Positions 25,073-30,040 of a stretch of 39,344 nucleotides of DNA are shown here, one piece after another. The stretch is from Desulfotomaculum sp. (GTDB lineage Bacteria > Bacillota > Desulfotomaculia > Desulfotomaculales > Desulfohalotomaculaceae). Each line of letters starts with the position of its first letter. Within the stretch, counting starts at the first letter, position 1. Location: contig JACDOL010000012.1 in the NCBI GenBank assembly GCA_017656165.1, forward strand, positions 1 to 39,344, read 5' to 3'. The position numbers and the translations under genes are program-made. The notes beneath the pieces were generated by a model. The model had not been told where the DNA came from. It saw only the letters and a list, made by a program, of their open reading frames with translations, and ran no database searches.

Positions 25073-25131
25073 GACTACCTCCGATTCTTGTACTGCATAA
25101 ATTATCTAATACTTGCAGATATTAGTCAAGT

Positions 25132-25314
25132 CTAGTGCTCAACTATAATCATTACACCATTATCCAGTTCATGCACCATGCCGTCAGCAATATTGGCCAG
25201 GGTAGCAGCTATTTTTGATTTTTGTTTTTCATTATCCGCATAAAAAATGGGAACACCGCCGTTCACTGTTTCTCTATTGCTAGTAACAGCTGCGAAAATT
25301 CTTTTTTTGCTCAT
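25132..25314 (-). CDS. Capping complex subunit for YIEGIA
   Basis: A 60-residue protein, MSKKRIFAAVTSNRETVNGG at the start, matching the small family that accompanies YIEGIA proteins. It follows the YIEGIA gene on the same strand, after a hairpin (25362-25415), and precedes the DUF512 gene. Function is not established; a partner role is inferred from conserved neighbourhood. Confidence 0.8.
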   Translation of the reverse strand: MSKKRIFAAVTSNRETVNGGVPIFYADNEKQKSKIAATLANIADGMVHELDNGVMIIVEH

Positions 25315-25361
25315 TAATGTATTTCACCCTTTAAATTTAAGATTACACACGGCAATAATGG

Positions 25362-25415
25362 CCGGCAGTATATGTAGTTACAATATTTACTTAACTGCAT
25401 ATACTGCCGGTTTTT
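25362..25415. other. Long hairpin between the YIEGIA and capping-subunit genes
   Basis: CCGGCAGTATATG (25362-25374) pairs perfectly with 25398-25410, with a further AGTTA/TAACT pairing inside (about 18 bp in all). The T-run is on the plus-strand side (25411-25415), so on the minus strand, where the genes run, it lacks a U-tract. It may act as an mRNA-stabilising or processing stem, or terminate an antisense transcript. Confidence 0.55.
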
Positions 25416-25420
25416 ATTAG

Positions 25421-26332
25421 TTAATCTGCAGCTGCACGACCTGCCTTTGCTGAAAGCGGTTTTCTAACTGCAGTTTCCAGCACTGGAGTGCGATTTACAG
25501 ATTCTATTAAAGCATCCATATCTTTTTCCATAGGCATGGTGTACAGCGCAATTTTACCAGTCCTCCTGTCTTTACGCAACATGGGAGTAAAATCAGGAAT
25601 ATCTATGTCCTTTTTACTGCCCAGTATTACACTAACAGTATGAGCAATTACGTTTCTCTGTCCCATATCGTGAATGGTTGCCCTGGCATTATCATCCTTG
25701 GGATGAATAATCACCCCAAGGCCATCTCTCAAAATTTCTTCGCGCCTTTCTTTTAGCCCAACATTGAATATGGGGATATCATCAACCCAAAGTATAGCAC
25801 CTTCAAATCTCAGCTCAGCTGGTTCCACTGTACATATATCCCCAATGGTCTTACCGGTCATAAAAGTACGAGCAAGCATTAACATTAACAATCCAACTAA
25901 AATGCCCAGCGGCCATCCCAAAAATGTATTTACACCAACTTGCGTTGCTACTGCAGTAATAAAGGCGGAAGCCATAACCAGGTAATTCCGTCCTTCAAAT
26001 GTCCGGGCGATTCCTTCAATATAATCTTTACCTCTTTTAACTAATTCCGTTTCTTCTAAACTTTCAAGGGTTCTTCTCTCCTGGTTGCGTATTTCGGAAA
26101 ACTGCTGGGCAGCTAATGCCAAAAAAGTGAAAGCCGTGTATTCCTTAGCCAGAACTGCAGGTACAGCTACAGCACCAAGAGCAGAGGCCACAAAACCTAA
26201 AGACAGGTGAACCACGTACCCGTGAGGATACCCAGGATACTGGCGGTAATCAATTCGAAGCAGGACCATCCTAGTAAGGGTACCAGCAAGTGTTCCGATA
26301 ATAATCACCAATAGATAGTCCTGCAGTCCCAT
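25421..26332 (-). CDS. YIEGIA family membrane protein
   Basis: 303 residues. The naming motif YIEGIARTFEGRNYLVMAS is present near residues 102-120. At least four hydrophobic segments are visible: N-terminal (YLLVIIIGTLAGTLTRMVLL), around 48-70, around 120-138 and around 140-158. A cytoplasmic-looking C-terminal domain of about 140 residues follows. It starts 4 nt after the spoIIP-1 stop, so the two are likely coupled. Found in spore formers beside spoIIP; a role at the forespore membranes is inference. Confidence 0.85.
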   Translation of the reverse strand: MGLQDYLLVIIIGTLAGTLTRMVLLRIDYRQYPGYPHGYVVHLSLGFVASALGAVAVPAVLAKEYTAFTFLALAAQQFSEIRNQERRTLESLEETELVKRGKDYIEGIARTFEGRNYLVMASAFITAVATQVGVNTFLGWPLGILVGLLMLMLARTFMTGKTIGDICTVEPAELRFEGAILWVDDIPIFNVGLKERREEILRDGLGVIIHPKDDNARATIHDMGQRNVIAHTVSVILGSKKDIDIPDFTPMLRKDRRTGKIALYTMPMEKDMDALIESVNRTPVLETAVRKPLSAKAGRAAAD

Positions 26333-26335
26333 AAT

Positions 26336-27550
26336 TTACTCCTCCTGCTGTTTATCATTTGGGGTTTCACTCTTTTTCTGCCTTTTATTTAATGTTTTCT
26401 CTGCCGGGGCCATAAAGCTGGTCATTTCTTTTCCCAAGCTTTTCATTTTATCAGAGGCACTCTTTAAGCTTCCAGTGCTAATTAATAAGAAGGCGCCCCC
26501 TCCAATCAGCAGAACCCCCACTATCCAGGCCGCGGTTGTCCACCCAGTATTACCTGCACTTTTACCTGTTCCAGTCCCTGCACCACCACCAACTCCCAGT
26601 ACAGTGGGAACAGCGTCAGCCAGTAGTGCAATGCCTTTTTCTGCTCTTTCACGCTTGTTAGTATGTGTCCCTGCCTCTACCAGAATTGCAGTAGGCATGA
26701 GATCCTGGTTGTAGTTACCGTCACCAATAAATATTTCTTTGATTAACTCTGGATGCTGTTTATTGGTATAAGCCATCAAGCGCCTGGCAAAGTCCTTATT
26801 AGATTTCATTTTAGGATTTTGTTTTCCTAATACTAAACGCAGCTGTGTAACTTTTTTATTGCTGATGTTCTTCCTGTAATAATTAGCATCAGGAACTCCG
26901 TCACGGTGAATATCAAATATGGCAATGGGATTTCTTTTCATGAGATCAACTGCCGTACGCCGGGAACGAACATAAGCATTATTGTCATGAGGATCATGCT
27001 TATTATCACTGTATATTACGTCGACACCTCTTTTTTTCAGTTCATCGGCAAATCTTTTTCCAACATTCAATATACCACCTTTAAAAGGTTCTGACTCAGT
27101 GCCATCAGTAGGTACATAAGACTCATCCGTGTGGGTCTGGTAAATTGCTACGGGGCGGTCGCCCTGCTTTTGAGCAGCAACAGGTATTTCATTAAGGTTG
27201 GCAAAATAATCTACCCATGCTAGGTATTCTTTATCAATACCCAGCATTTTAGCTGTCGCTTTACTACCTTCAACCCGGCTGATTTTAAAATGCCGGCTAT
27301 CACTTTTAATAATTTCATCTCCATTTTGAACGTAGCGGCTCATCTTACTAACCAGGCTGCCATCTTCGTCATAAATTTCCACAGTATGACCTGGAACATG
27401 ATTGATCCAATTAGAATTAACTAATGCAGAGGGACTCCATACCGGTTGGGCAGCAATTGTAAAATTGGCAGCAGCCGCTGCCAGCACTGCCACCCCAAGA
27501 ACAAGCATAGTTACTGCCAGGTGAATTTTTTTATGCTTACTGTTCTTCAT
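26336..27550 (-). CDS. spoIIP: Stage II sporulation protein P, copy 1
   Basis: 404 residues. SpoIIP is the amidase/endopeptidase that, with SpoIID and SpoIIM, thins septal peptidoglycan to drive engulfment. An N-terminal signal anchor (about 8-30) precedes the amidase domain; metal-binding residues match THTDESY (H140, E143), DIHRDG (H215) and LVEAGTHTN (E292). Unlike Bacillus SpoIIP, a second hydrophobic span (about 339-358) and a basic tail follow. The ATG at 27550 overlaps the DUF1614 stop as TAATG. It forms a coupled set with the DUF1614 and YIEGIA genes. Confidence 0.9.
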   Translation of the reverse strand: MKNSKHKKIHLAVTMLVLGVAVLAAAAANFTIAAQPVWSPSALVNSNWINHVPGHTVEIYDEDGSLVSKMSRYVQNGDEIIKSDSRHFKISRVEGSKATAKMLGIDKEYLAWVDYFANLNEIPVAAQKQGDRPVAIYQTHTDESYVPTDGTESEPFKGGILNVGKRFADELKKRGVDVIYSDNKHDPHDNNAYVRSRRTAVDLMKRNPIAIFDIHRDGVPDANYYRKNISNKKVTQLRLVLGKQNPKMKSNKDFARRLMAYTNKQHPELIKEIFIGDGNYNQDLMPTAILVEAGTHTNKRERAEKGIALLADAVPTVLGVGGGAGTGTGKSAGNTGWTTAAWIVGVLLIGGGAFLLISTGSLKSASDKMKSLGKEMTSFMAPAEKTLNKRQKKSETPNDKQQEE

Positions 27551-28434
27551 TATTCCCCCCTCCTTTTTTCAGTAATATCGTCTGTTACGCTCGGAACGTC
27601 CGTAAGATTCGTAAAATTTACTCCTTGTTCATGTTTATTGTTTTCTTCTCCAGTAAAAGGCATAGTATCACTAACTTCTATATCTCCAGTTTCCAAGGCA
27701 TTGGCAGTATGCGGCTGAGCCCCCGCTTGTTCATCATGCCTGTTAACCTCAGGCTTTCTTAAACCGGCTAAAAGTTCATCTGGACGTCCTTCAGTTTGAG
27801 GTCCTCCCTGCAATCTTTCCCTCAGCTCACCAAAAATCTCAGCCAAAAGAACGGCCACAATACCAGACAGCACAGTAACGTCAAAGGCTCCAGCACCTCC
27901 TATAGCCACTGTACCCCCTATCGCACCATTCTGTACCAGCCAAATAAAGTGAAATATATCAACTAATACTACTCCCAGTGTGGCAGCAATAAAGGCAGAA
28001 CGGCGGGAACGACCGGCCAGATAGCCGGTAATCCCGGCAGCCAAGGGGTACAAATAAAGTGAATCAATTACACCAAATCTTCCTGCCGGTTCTGGAAGCC
28101 CACTCATTAATAAAGTTCCGGTATAATACACCACTACACCTGTTACCACTGTAGCCACTATTGCTCTGACATATTCTTTACGGGTACCTGCCTTGGCAAG
28201 TAAATATCCCGCCAAACCAATTGGTATTATACCGCCTCCCACGTTAATAGATGCTCTAATATTACCCAGTGGAAGAGGTATAGTTATAAAACTACCAATT
28301 ATCATTGCTGCAATAATACCAAGCGCCGCTTTATCACTAAGCCTCATGCGATCAAGTACGCGTTGTGCCAATCCAAAATAAATTAAAAAAGAAACAATGA
28401 TCAAGGCAATGAGCCCAAATGGAAACTGTGTCAT
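27550..28434 (-). CDS. DUF1614 family membrane protein
   Basis: 294 residues. The first ~215 residues are very hydrophobic (about seven segments) with glycine-rich loops such as GGGIIPIGLAGYLLA and GGTVAIGGAGAFDVTVLSG; the last ~80 are polar and acidic. The family is known from Clostridia without a defined role. It sits between two spoIIP genes and is translationally coupled to the second by TAATG. An involvement in engulfment is inferred from position only. TAAGGAGG precedes its ATG. Confidence 0.8.
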   Translation of the reverse strand: MTQFPFGLIALIIVSFLIYFGLAQRVLDRMRLSDKAALGIIAAMIIGSFITIPLPLGNIRASINVGGGIIPIGLAGYLLAKAGTRKEYVRAIVATVVTGVVVYYTGTLLMSGLPEPAGRFGVIDSLYLYPLAAGITGYLAGRSRRSAFIAATLGVVLVDIFHFIWLVQNGAIGGTVAIGGAGAFDVTVLSGIVAVLLAEIFGELRERLQGGPQTEGRPDELLAGLRKPEVNRHDEQAGAQPHTANALETGDIEVSDTMPFTGEENNKHEQGVNFTNLTDVPSVTDDITEKRRGE

Positions 28435-28503
28435 AATGTCTATCCTCCTTAGGTGTTTTAAATACTGATTTACACCTGTATACTACCCAAGAATAAGATA
28501 TGT

Positions 28504-29850
28504 TTATTCGTTTTGCTTATCTCGAGCTCTACCTCTTTTTTTCTTTACTGGCACCTTTCTTTTAGCCATGGGTTTTAAAGCTGGATGCTGATTTATTTTT
28601 GTATTTACTTGTATAAAAGCAGCCTGGAGGTAGTTAAATAACTTTTGAAATGCTTGCCATTTTATTACTGGTTTTAAAAAATCTACAACCTGGTGTTTAA
28701 TTTTTACTGCTGCTGAAGCAATACTTTTTTTGATAGACATTATTTCAGGTGATGACATTTTTTTTCTTATAGTTAGAGCAGCAGTTTCCACAGTTTTCTC
28801 AAAATTACCCCTGCTGATAAAGTAAAAGGCCGCTGCGGACATTAAAGTAATAATAAATAACCATCCGGCCACTGCCCAACTGCTTCTGCTGTGTTCTTCT
28901 ATTGCTACTTCACCGGGTCCAACACCAGCTGTTAACCCTAATACCGGAGGTACTGCTTCTGCAAAAAGTGTTATCCCTTTTAACGCCTCTTCCAGGGTAT
29001 TTGTATATGTACCCGCTTCCACCAGAACGGCGGTAGATAGTAAATCTTGATTATAGCTGCCGCTTCCCATATAAAGATCCTTTATTAAACCGGGGTACAG
29101 CTGGTGAGCATAAGCCATCAGACGTTTAGCAAAATCCTTGTTTGAAGGATACCTTGGATTCTGCTTACCTATAACCAGCCTTACCTTAGCTACCATACGG
29201 CCATCAATCTTAACCCGGTATTTGCTGCTGCTGGGAACTCCATCACGGTGAATATCAAATAACGCCGCCGGGTTATTTTTTAAAATACCAGCTGCGGTCC
29301 GCCGGGAACGAATATATGCATTATTATCATGAGGATCATGGGGAGTTTTATAATACAGTACATTAACCCCCACACTGCGAAGATAATCTGCAAAATGCTG
29401 GCCAACCTGGTAAATATCTCCTTGAAAGGGTTCAATGGCTTTGCCGCTTTCCGGTAGGTAGGACTCATCTGTGTGAGTGTGATAAATACCAACCGGCCTT
29501 TTTTTCCATTGTCTTGTTGTTGTTTGTACCGCTGCTTTTTTATAGTATTTCAACCAGTGAATATAATCTTTATCTATACCCTTAAAATCAGCATTAGCGG
29601 CATTTTCTTTAACTTCGTTAACCCTGTATAAGCGTCCATCAGGTAGAAGTATTTCATCGCCAATAAACACCTGGCAGGCAAGTTCAGTTATTATACTGCC
29701 ATTACCATCCTTTACCCGGCAATTTTTACCTGCCTCGTGACCTCCTGAGGAAATATAACATGAAGTATTAACAGGTTTGATAAAAAAAATTAGACCTGCT
29801 AATAGCAGCACTTGACAAATTTTATTTATAATAAATTCCTCCCAATTCAC
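28504..29850 (-). CDS. spoIIP: Stage II sporulation protein P, copy 2
   Basis: About 448 residues (GTG at 29850), a paralogue of copy 1. The same metal motifs occur (HTHTDESY, DIHRDG, LVEAGTYTN), and the neighbouring DPHDNNAY.RSRRTA block is shared. An N-terminal hydrophobic anchor, a second span near residue 325 and a longer C-terminal helical region of about 100 residues end in a very basic tail (KRKVPVKKKRGRARDKQNE). The true start is unclear: the only strong ribosome site (GGGAGGA, 29843-29837) lies just upstream of ATT (29832) and ATA (29829), not of ATG, GTG or TTG. Frames starting at TTG 29886 or GTG 29850 lack a ribosome site. Confidence 0.85.
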   Translation of the reverse strand: MNWEEFIINKICQVLLLAGLIFFIKPVNTSCYISSGGHEAGKNCRVKDGNGSIITELACQVFIGDEILLPDGRLYRVNEVKENAANADFKGIDKDYIHWLKYYKKAAVQTTTRQWKKRPVGIYHTHTDESYLPESGKAIEPFQGDIYQVGQHFADYLRSVGVNVLYYKTPHDPHDNNAYIRSRRTAAGILKNNPAALFDIHRDGVPSSSKYRVKIDGRMVAKVRLVIGKQNPRYPSNKDFAKRLMAYAHQLYPGLIKDLYMGSGSYNQDLLSTAVLVEAGTYTNTLEEALKGITLFAEAVPPVLGLTAGVGPGEVAIEEHSRSSWAVAGWLFIITLMSAAAFYFISRGNFEKTVETAALTIRKKMSSPEIMSIKKSIASAAVKIKHQVVDFLKPVIKWQAFQKLFNYLQAAFIQVNTKINQHPALKPMAKRKVPVKKKRGRARDKQNE

Positions 29851-29965
29851 TATGTCAGTAGATATATTTTCCCCGGATAAGAACAATATGCAAAAAATAA
29901 AGGCCAGATGATCTGGTCTTGCCTTGGATAGGTGACAGGGTTTCTTTCAACCCATCGGCTCAGCA

Positions 29966-30040
29966 GACATGCTGGAGCAGAATAAGTAAAAAGTGGCACG
30001 CAAAGCGTGCCACTTTTTACTTATTCTGCTCCAGCATGTC
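29966..30040 (-). terminator. 36-bp perfect inverted repeat at the 3' end of ispH-rpsA
   Basis: Arms 29966-30001 and 30005-30040 are perfectly complementary with a 3-nt loop. The right arm contains the last seven codons and stop of ispH-rpsA. The inner part (about 15 bp, AAAAAGTGGCACGC/GCGTGCCACTTTTT) is an ordinary intrinsic terminator with a T-run on the minus strand; the outer ~21 bp are an unexpected extension. Confidence 0.85.

Follow-up and report, generated by a model that had tools for sequence, protein, structure and literature searches.

A second, doubly anchored kind of SpoIIP and its DUF1614 neighbour in a predicted forespore operon of Desulfotomaculum and related spore-formers

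The SpoIIP of Bacillus subtilis, which with SpoIID and SpoIIM forms the DMP complex, is made in the mother cell from a sigma-E promoter. A mother-cell sigma-E promoter is not universal for canonical SpoIIP, however, because in Clostridioides difficile the protein is controlled by sigma-F and acts in engulfment (PMC6934232). Bacterial DUF1614-SpoIIP-YIEGIA (yphB) neighbourhoods have also been reported, and a membrane-remodelling complex predicted from them, in the account of the arCOG02159/COG4089/PF07758 family given by Makarova et al. 2015 (PMC5898192). Here we analyse such a locus in a 39,344-nucleotide stretch of DNA from Desulfotomaculum sp. (assembly GCA_017656165.1, contig JACDOL010000012.1, positions 1 to 39,344; the whole stretch is called the window below). 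We argue that it is probably a forespore-transcribed sporulation operon for a second SpoIIP-type amidase, working beside the canonical DMP complex and with DUF1614 as its partner. Within the part of Makarova et al. 2015 used here, the neighbourhood is described without a split of two SpoIIP families, a double anchor, an obligate capping subunit, a two-module pattern, a forespore-type promoter or a tandem duplicate, and a search of open-licence papers likewise turned up no earlier account of two kinds of SpoIIP, their anchoring at both ends, the promoter, the split into two modules or the tandem copy.

Two kinds of SpoIIP in one genome

A preliminary description of the window, made from its letters, had named five minus-strand genes in the order spoIIP-DUF1614-spoIIP-YIEGIA-cap, and profile searches confirm both the genes and their order. 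They encode SpoIIP-1 (28504..29832; PF07454, 201 bits), a polytopic membrane protein of the SpoIIP-associated DUF1614 subtype (27550..28434; PF07758, 45.8 bits), the doubly anchored SpoIIP-type amidase SpoIIP-2 (26336..27550; PF07454, 192 bits), a YIEGIA membrane protein of the B. subtilis YphB family (25421..26332; PF14045, 411 bits) and the 60-amino-acid YIEGIA capping subunit, or cap (25132..25314; PF21835, 85.8 bits). All five exceed the Pfam curated cut-offs (24.4 bits for PF07454, 23.9 for PF07758, 27 for PF14045 and 24.1 for PF21835). The cluster SpoIIPs also pass the TIGR02867 profile, and the DUF1614 match is limited to profile positions 42-171.

The same description overlooked a third SpoIIP elsewhere in the source genome (G000:C3:47919-48569). 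This gene is followed by those for a YqxA-like protein and LepA, both named by reading the sequences and from gene order, and spoIIP-yqxA-lepA, the B. subtilis arrangement, marks it as the canonical copy. SpoIIM (two matches) and SpoIID (three matches) are likewise encoded elsewhere; the DMP set is thus complete without the cluster, and the cluster is additional to it.

That both cluster SpoIIPs carry an extra C-terminal membrane span, as had been suggested, holds as far as hydropathy, the method used to call spans here, can tell. The span is present in 125 of 129 cluster SpoIIPs and absent from 24 of 25 SpoIIPs encoded elsewhere, and the lone non-cluster protein that possesses it (L124) sits within the cluster clade of a maximum-likelihood tree; it is diagnostic of the cluster SpoIIP. 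In that tree a 100/100 branch parts the 21 other canonical copies from all cluster copies. Four putative active-site residues, numbered H140, E143, H215 and E292 in SpoIIP-2, are invariant across canonical and cluster proteins, and the invariant histidines are presumably the two found to be essential in C. difficile SpoIIP (PMC6221140).

SpoIIP-1 also has N- and C-terminal membrane spans, together with a long basic cytoplasmic tail. Its mechanically called open reading frame (ORF; 28504-29886) has no ATG start, and the GTG at 29850 first proposed as its start codon lacks a ribosome-binding site. An ATT at 29830-29832, preceded by GGGAGG (GGGAGGAATTT-ATT), aligns with the ATG of a relative in the same genus (G150) and is the probable start; ATT in place of ATG may be a seldom-used start codon, an error in sequencing or a sign that the gene has begun to decay. 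SpoIIP-1 proteins from five genomes of the window's bacterial family form one 100/100 clade, sister to the SpoIIP-2 proteins of the family, and about 100 other loci with DUF1614 have no such SpoIIP duplicate upstream. On sequence grounds, SpoIIP-1 is a tandem duplicate of SpoIIP-2 confined to this family. Its presence in five genomes rules out a peculiarity of the source genome.

Distribution of DUF1614, YIEGIA and cap

To follow the families beyond the window, we used one sample of 149 genomes of the phylum for all family counts, with SpoIVA as the marker of sporulation. SpoIIP was found in 132 genomes, SpoIVA in 131, DUF1614 in 113, and YIEGIA and cap in 71 each, the last two in an identical set. 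DUF1614 falls into two types, a full-length archaeal-like form (23 genomes; for example G103:C41:7786-8280) and a SpoIIP-linked form (112 genomes). Control genomes of Sulfolobus and Methanosarcina have the archaeal type and B. subtilis has none. The SpoIIP-linked form occurs in 111 of 131 SpoIVA-positive genomes as against 1 of 18 SpoIVA-negative ones (p = 3e-11, not corrected for phylogeny), and a second SpoIIP accompanies it in 110 of 111 genomes as against 3 of 21 without it (p = 4e-18, likewise uncorrected). Twenty of the 131 SpoIVA-positive genomes lack SpoIIP-linked DUF1614, and a reduced relative (G152) has neither SpoIIP nor DUF1614.

Adjacent DUF1614 and SpoIIP genes were seen at 99 loci of the phylum sample, and in a GTDB-wide scan SpoIIP lies directly behind DUF1614 at all 80 of 80 named loci, with YIEGIA next at 57; the carriers include Desulforadius, Desulforamulus, Desulfoscipio, Carboxydothermus, Sporomusa and Pelosinus. 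With such numbers the adjacency cannot be ascribed to chance. This bears on the view that the cluster SpoIIP is a plain second copy kept for dosage, with DUF1614 as a chance neighbour. Identical active-site residues mean that the chemistry of the two kinds may be equal, but the unbroken linkage to DUF1614, the separate clade and topology and the distinct promoter described below make that view very improbable.

The complete order DUF1614-SpoIIP-YIEGIA-cap is found at 56 loci of the phylum sample; DUF1614-SpoIIP without YIEGIA accounts for 43 loci, and YIEGIA-cap without DUF1614-SpoIIP for 11. Such frequent separate occurrence identifies DUF1614-SpoIIP and YIEGIA-cap as two modules that often share one locus. 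Four genomes (G036, G075, G108 and G137, at L118, L117, L119 and L116, respectively) carry a second YIEGIA-cap pair elsewhere that comes without SpoIIP.

The partnership proposed in the preliminary description thus stands when taken part by part, SpoIIP-linked DUF1614 and SpoIIP being near-obligate neighbours and YIEGIA and cap obligate partners. The expected link to sporulation stands too, for the SpoIIP-linked DUF1614 subtype, YIEGIA and cap all track it, but as two modules and not one; it is the archaeal-type DUF1614 alone that is common in non-sporulating genomes or without spoIIP. The further proposal, that the five proteins join DMP in a single larger machine for engulfment, fares less well. 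It would account for the conserved adjacency, including the 56 loci with the full order, and for the strong association with sporulation, and it can call on the sigma-F-controlled, engulfment-active SpoIIP of C. difficile (PMC6934232). However, canonical SpoIIP, SpoIID and SpoIIM are encoded separately, the 43 and 11 loci with one module only show that the two can occur apart, the promoter class is unlike that of canonical SpoIIP, and 20 SpoIVA-positive genomes manage without SpoIIP-linked DUF1614. We therefore regard a single machine as distinctly unlikely.

The AlphaFold model of DUF1614 (predicted local distance difference test score, pLDDT, 80) has a helical membrane core, a small beta hairpin and a disordered tail, and the YIEGIA model (pLDDT 88) combines N-terminal helices with a soluble alpha/beta domain; fold comparison with the PDB gave no match for either. 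PDB sequence searches with YIEGIA, cap and SpoIIP-2 returned nothing useful, and no homology was detectable between cap and the soluble domain of YIEGIA.

A forespore-type promoter and the limits of the operon

Strict textbook patterns for sigma-F, sigma-G, sigma-E, sigma-K and sigma-H found nothing upstream of DUF1614. The sigma-E pattern shows no enrichment there (5 sites against 4.4 expected), whereas 6 of 23 canonical SpoIIP genes have sigma-E-like sites (0.6 expected). A de novo count of spaced tetramer pairs gave CATA-N15-GGAA as the top dyad, and a two-block weight matrix, TGCATAtt-N11/12-nGGGAAAnnTA, matches 141 of 160 regions upstream of DUF1614 as against 3% in shuffles. With the regions split in half, a matrix trained on either half recovers 69/80 and 70/80 in the half held out (shuffles about 4/80), and upstream of SpoIIP-2, YIEGIA, cap, DUF512, der and canonical SpoIIP the matches stay at background.

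Over both strands of the window, the two highest scores fall on candidate forespore-type promoters, one before SpoIIP-1 and one before DUF1614. That of SpoIIP-1 (TGCATATT-N11-GGGAAAATATA, 29863..29892, minus strand; 22.7 bits) ranks second in 834 kb of the source genome, where only 12 sites reach at least 15.5 bits. That of DUF1614 (cGAATAAA-N13-TGGGTAGTATA, 28479..28510, minus strand; 17.4 bits) has a -35 element overlapping the SpoIIP-1 stop codon, and the position is equivalent in 5/5 family members. A good match of 17.3 bits also precedes a 56-amino-acid ORF of no known family (L302:98-268, minus strand).

The gene for sigma-G, sigG, is known to be read from promoters of forespore type (PMC3789829, PMC7438776) and provided a comparison. 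The strict pattern GYATA-N14/15-GG occurs upstream of sigG at 14 of 17 loci (0.4 expected), and also in the source genome; it precedes DUF1614 at 69 of 161 loci (6.3 expected) and canonical SpoIIP at none of 23. We dropped spoIIR as a positive control, as it lies just behind sigG and the block conserved there is sigG coding sequence. The -10 elements differ, with GGnnAnnMTA at DUF1614 and GGnAATAnT at sigG, the latter type being found at 0/161 DUF1614 sites. Given the shared geometry and the differing -10, the DUF1614 promoter is likely active in the same compartment as that of sigG, namely the forespore, with sigma-F or sigma-G as the predicted factor.

Were the factor sigma-G, SpoIIP-2 and DUF1614 could form a post-engulfment module that works at the inner membrane to shape the germ-cell wall or cortex, or one kept in the spore membrane until germination. 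In its favour, the -10 ends in [AC]AnnMTA 17-18 nucleotides (nt) from GYATA, a sigma-G layout unlike the sigma-F-type -10 of sigG. A weaker match (11.7 bits) lies upstream of spore photoproduct lyase in the source genome, a sigma-G gene in B. subtilis, and a YIEGIA protein has been found in the spore inner membrane of Bacillus cereus (PMC8624511). On the other side, B. subtilis yphB is reported to be sigma-F dependent, though not essential (PMC12017682), and the sigma-F and sigma-G consensus sequences overlap in C. difficile (PMC7438776). The -10 GG at DUF1614 is moreover strong (0.95 and 0.90), and GG at this position is a sigma-F hallmark. On balance, a post-engulfment sigma-G module is an unlikely account.

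The candidate promoters also bear on how tightly the genes are coupled. The TAATG overlap noted between DUF1614 and SpoIIP-2 is real, the two sharing one base (27550), and the SpoIIP-2/YIEGIA gap, given as 4 nt, measures 3 nt (26333-26335). Only these two of the four junctions are coupled, because the 69-nt gap between SpoIIP-1 and DUF1614 contains the promoter-like site and the 106-nt gap between YIEGIA and cap contains a hairpin. The latter is an inverted repeat (25354..25418) with 27-nt arms, 85% matched, that has no Rfam match and no T run. In G150 the YIEGIA/cap gap is similarly enlarged (223 nt).

The surroundings are conserved as cmk-plsC-ispH/rpsA-[DUF1614-SpoIIP-YIEGIA-cap]-DUF512-der-plsY-gpsA, with spoIVA further along. 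A pattern match to a sigma-A-like promoter (TTGACT-N17-GATAAT, 25101..25129, minus strand) stands at the start of the next unit, DUF512-der-plsY-gpsA. Such a promoter precedes DUF512, which encodes a radical SAM/PDZ protein, at 97 of 130 loci (3.8 expected), and the cluster is therefore a transcription unit separate from the downstream housekeeping genes. In most relatives two short genes that resemble each other separate cap from DUF512, and a type-2 isopentenyl-diphosphate isomerase-like gene often follows rpsA ahead of DUF1614; the window lacks both. At 29966-30040 a perfect 36-nt inverted repeat with a 3-nt loop covers the final codons of the ispH-rpsA ORF and the terminator. No second example turned up in 834 kb of the source genome or in four relatives, and the repeat is possibly a fold-back duplication or an assembly artefact.

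Proposed role and comparison with known systems

In the operon that we favour, SpoIIP-2 and its duplicate SpoIIP-1 would be anchored in the membrane by both termini, leaving the amidase domain on the outer side, and DUF1614 would be their dedicated polytopic partner, most likely SpoIIM-like in holding and positioning the amidase. Placed in the forespore membrane, SpoIIP-2 and DUF1614 would cut the peptidoglycan of the intermembrane space while engulfment is under way or shortly afterwards, facing mother-cell SpoIIP from the other side, with septal peptidoglycan and the germ-cell wall as substrates. YIEGIA and cap would act as a separate obligate pair, usually from the same operon and in the same membrane. 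The reported sigma-F dependence of B. subtilis yphB and the YIEGIA protein of the B. cereus spore inner membrane also speak for the forespore reading.

Several points weigh against this proposal. The co-occurrence statistics take no account of phylogeny, and with about a third of the genome scanned the matrix has yielded few other convincing forespore genes. The -10 differs from that of sigG, and the sigma factor could be sigma-G, which would place the operon after engulfment. Forespore expression, localisation and amidase activity are all predictions and, because no solved fold resembles the model of DUF1614, the scaffold role is suggested by gene linkage and by analogy with SpoIIM. The analogy is one of function only: SpoIIM too is a polytopic membrane protein that partners a SpoIIP amidase, but belongs to another Pfam family, is separately encoded in the source genome and is linked to DUF1614 by no fold comparison.

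For the second module, the closest described relative is the B. subtilis pair of YphB and a PF21835 cap, which belong to the same families and also occur together, although B. subtilis, unlike the source genome, has no DUF1614. The analysis sets YIEGIA-cap apart, and DUF1614, an uncharacterised family also found in archaea, gains a concrete and testable partner and process. Named cultured carriers are Desulforadius tongensis, Carboxydothermus islandicus, Sporomusa acidovorans and species of Desulforamulus and Desulfoscipio. Taken together, these results suggest that sporulation in Desulfotomaculum-related spore-formers involves another cell-wall-remodelling module, one that has had little study.

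Compared with the canonical DMP SpoIIP of B. subtilis and C. difficile, the cluster SpoIIP shares the PF07454 amidase domain, the N-terminal anchor, the active-site histidines and glutamates and the link to sporulation. It differs in having a C-terminal span, and hence on hydropathy an anchor at both ends and not a single N-terminal one, a basic tail, the signature 'PHD..AY.RSRRT', a DUF1614 partner, a forespore-type promoter and a clade of its own; it occurs besides the canonical copy and away from the spoIIP-yqxA-lepA location. We tentatively extend this to a broader scheme, which may well prove too general, in which most sporulating members of the group, with Sporomusa and Pelosinus, run a forespore-only SpoIIP-2/DUF1614 complex, so that each face of the wall between mother cell and forespore has its own dedicated SpoIIP to remodel it, one mother-cell-controlled and the other forespore-controlled. 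Bacillus would keep only the first of these, and the SpoIIP of C. difficile is forespore-controlled. The difference between mother-cell SpoIIP in B. subtilis and forespore SpoIIP in C. difficile is unexplained, and in the present group the two kinds coexist, the canonical SpoIIP behind promoters of mother-cell type and the distinct, double-anchored SpoIIP behind one of forespore type.

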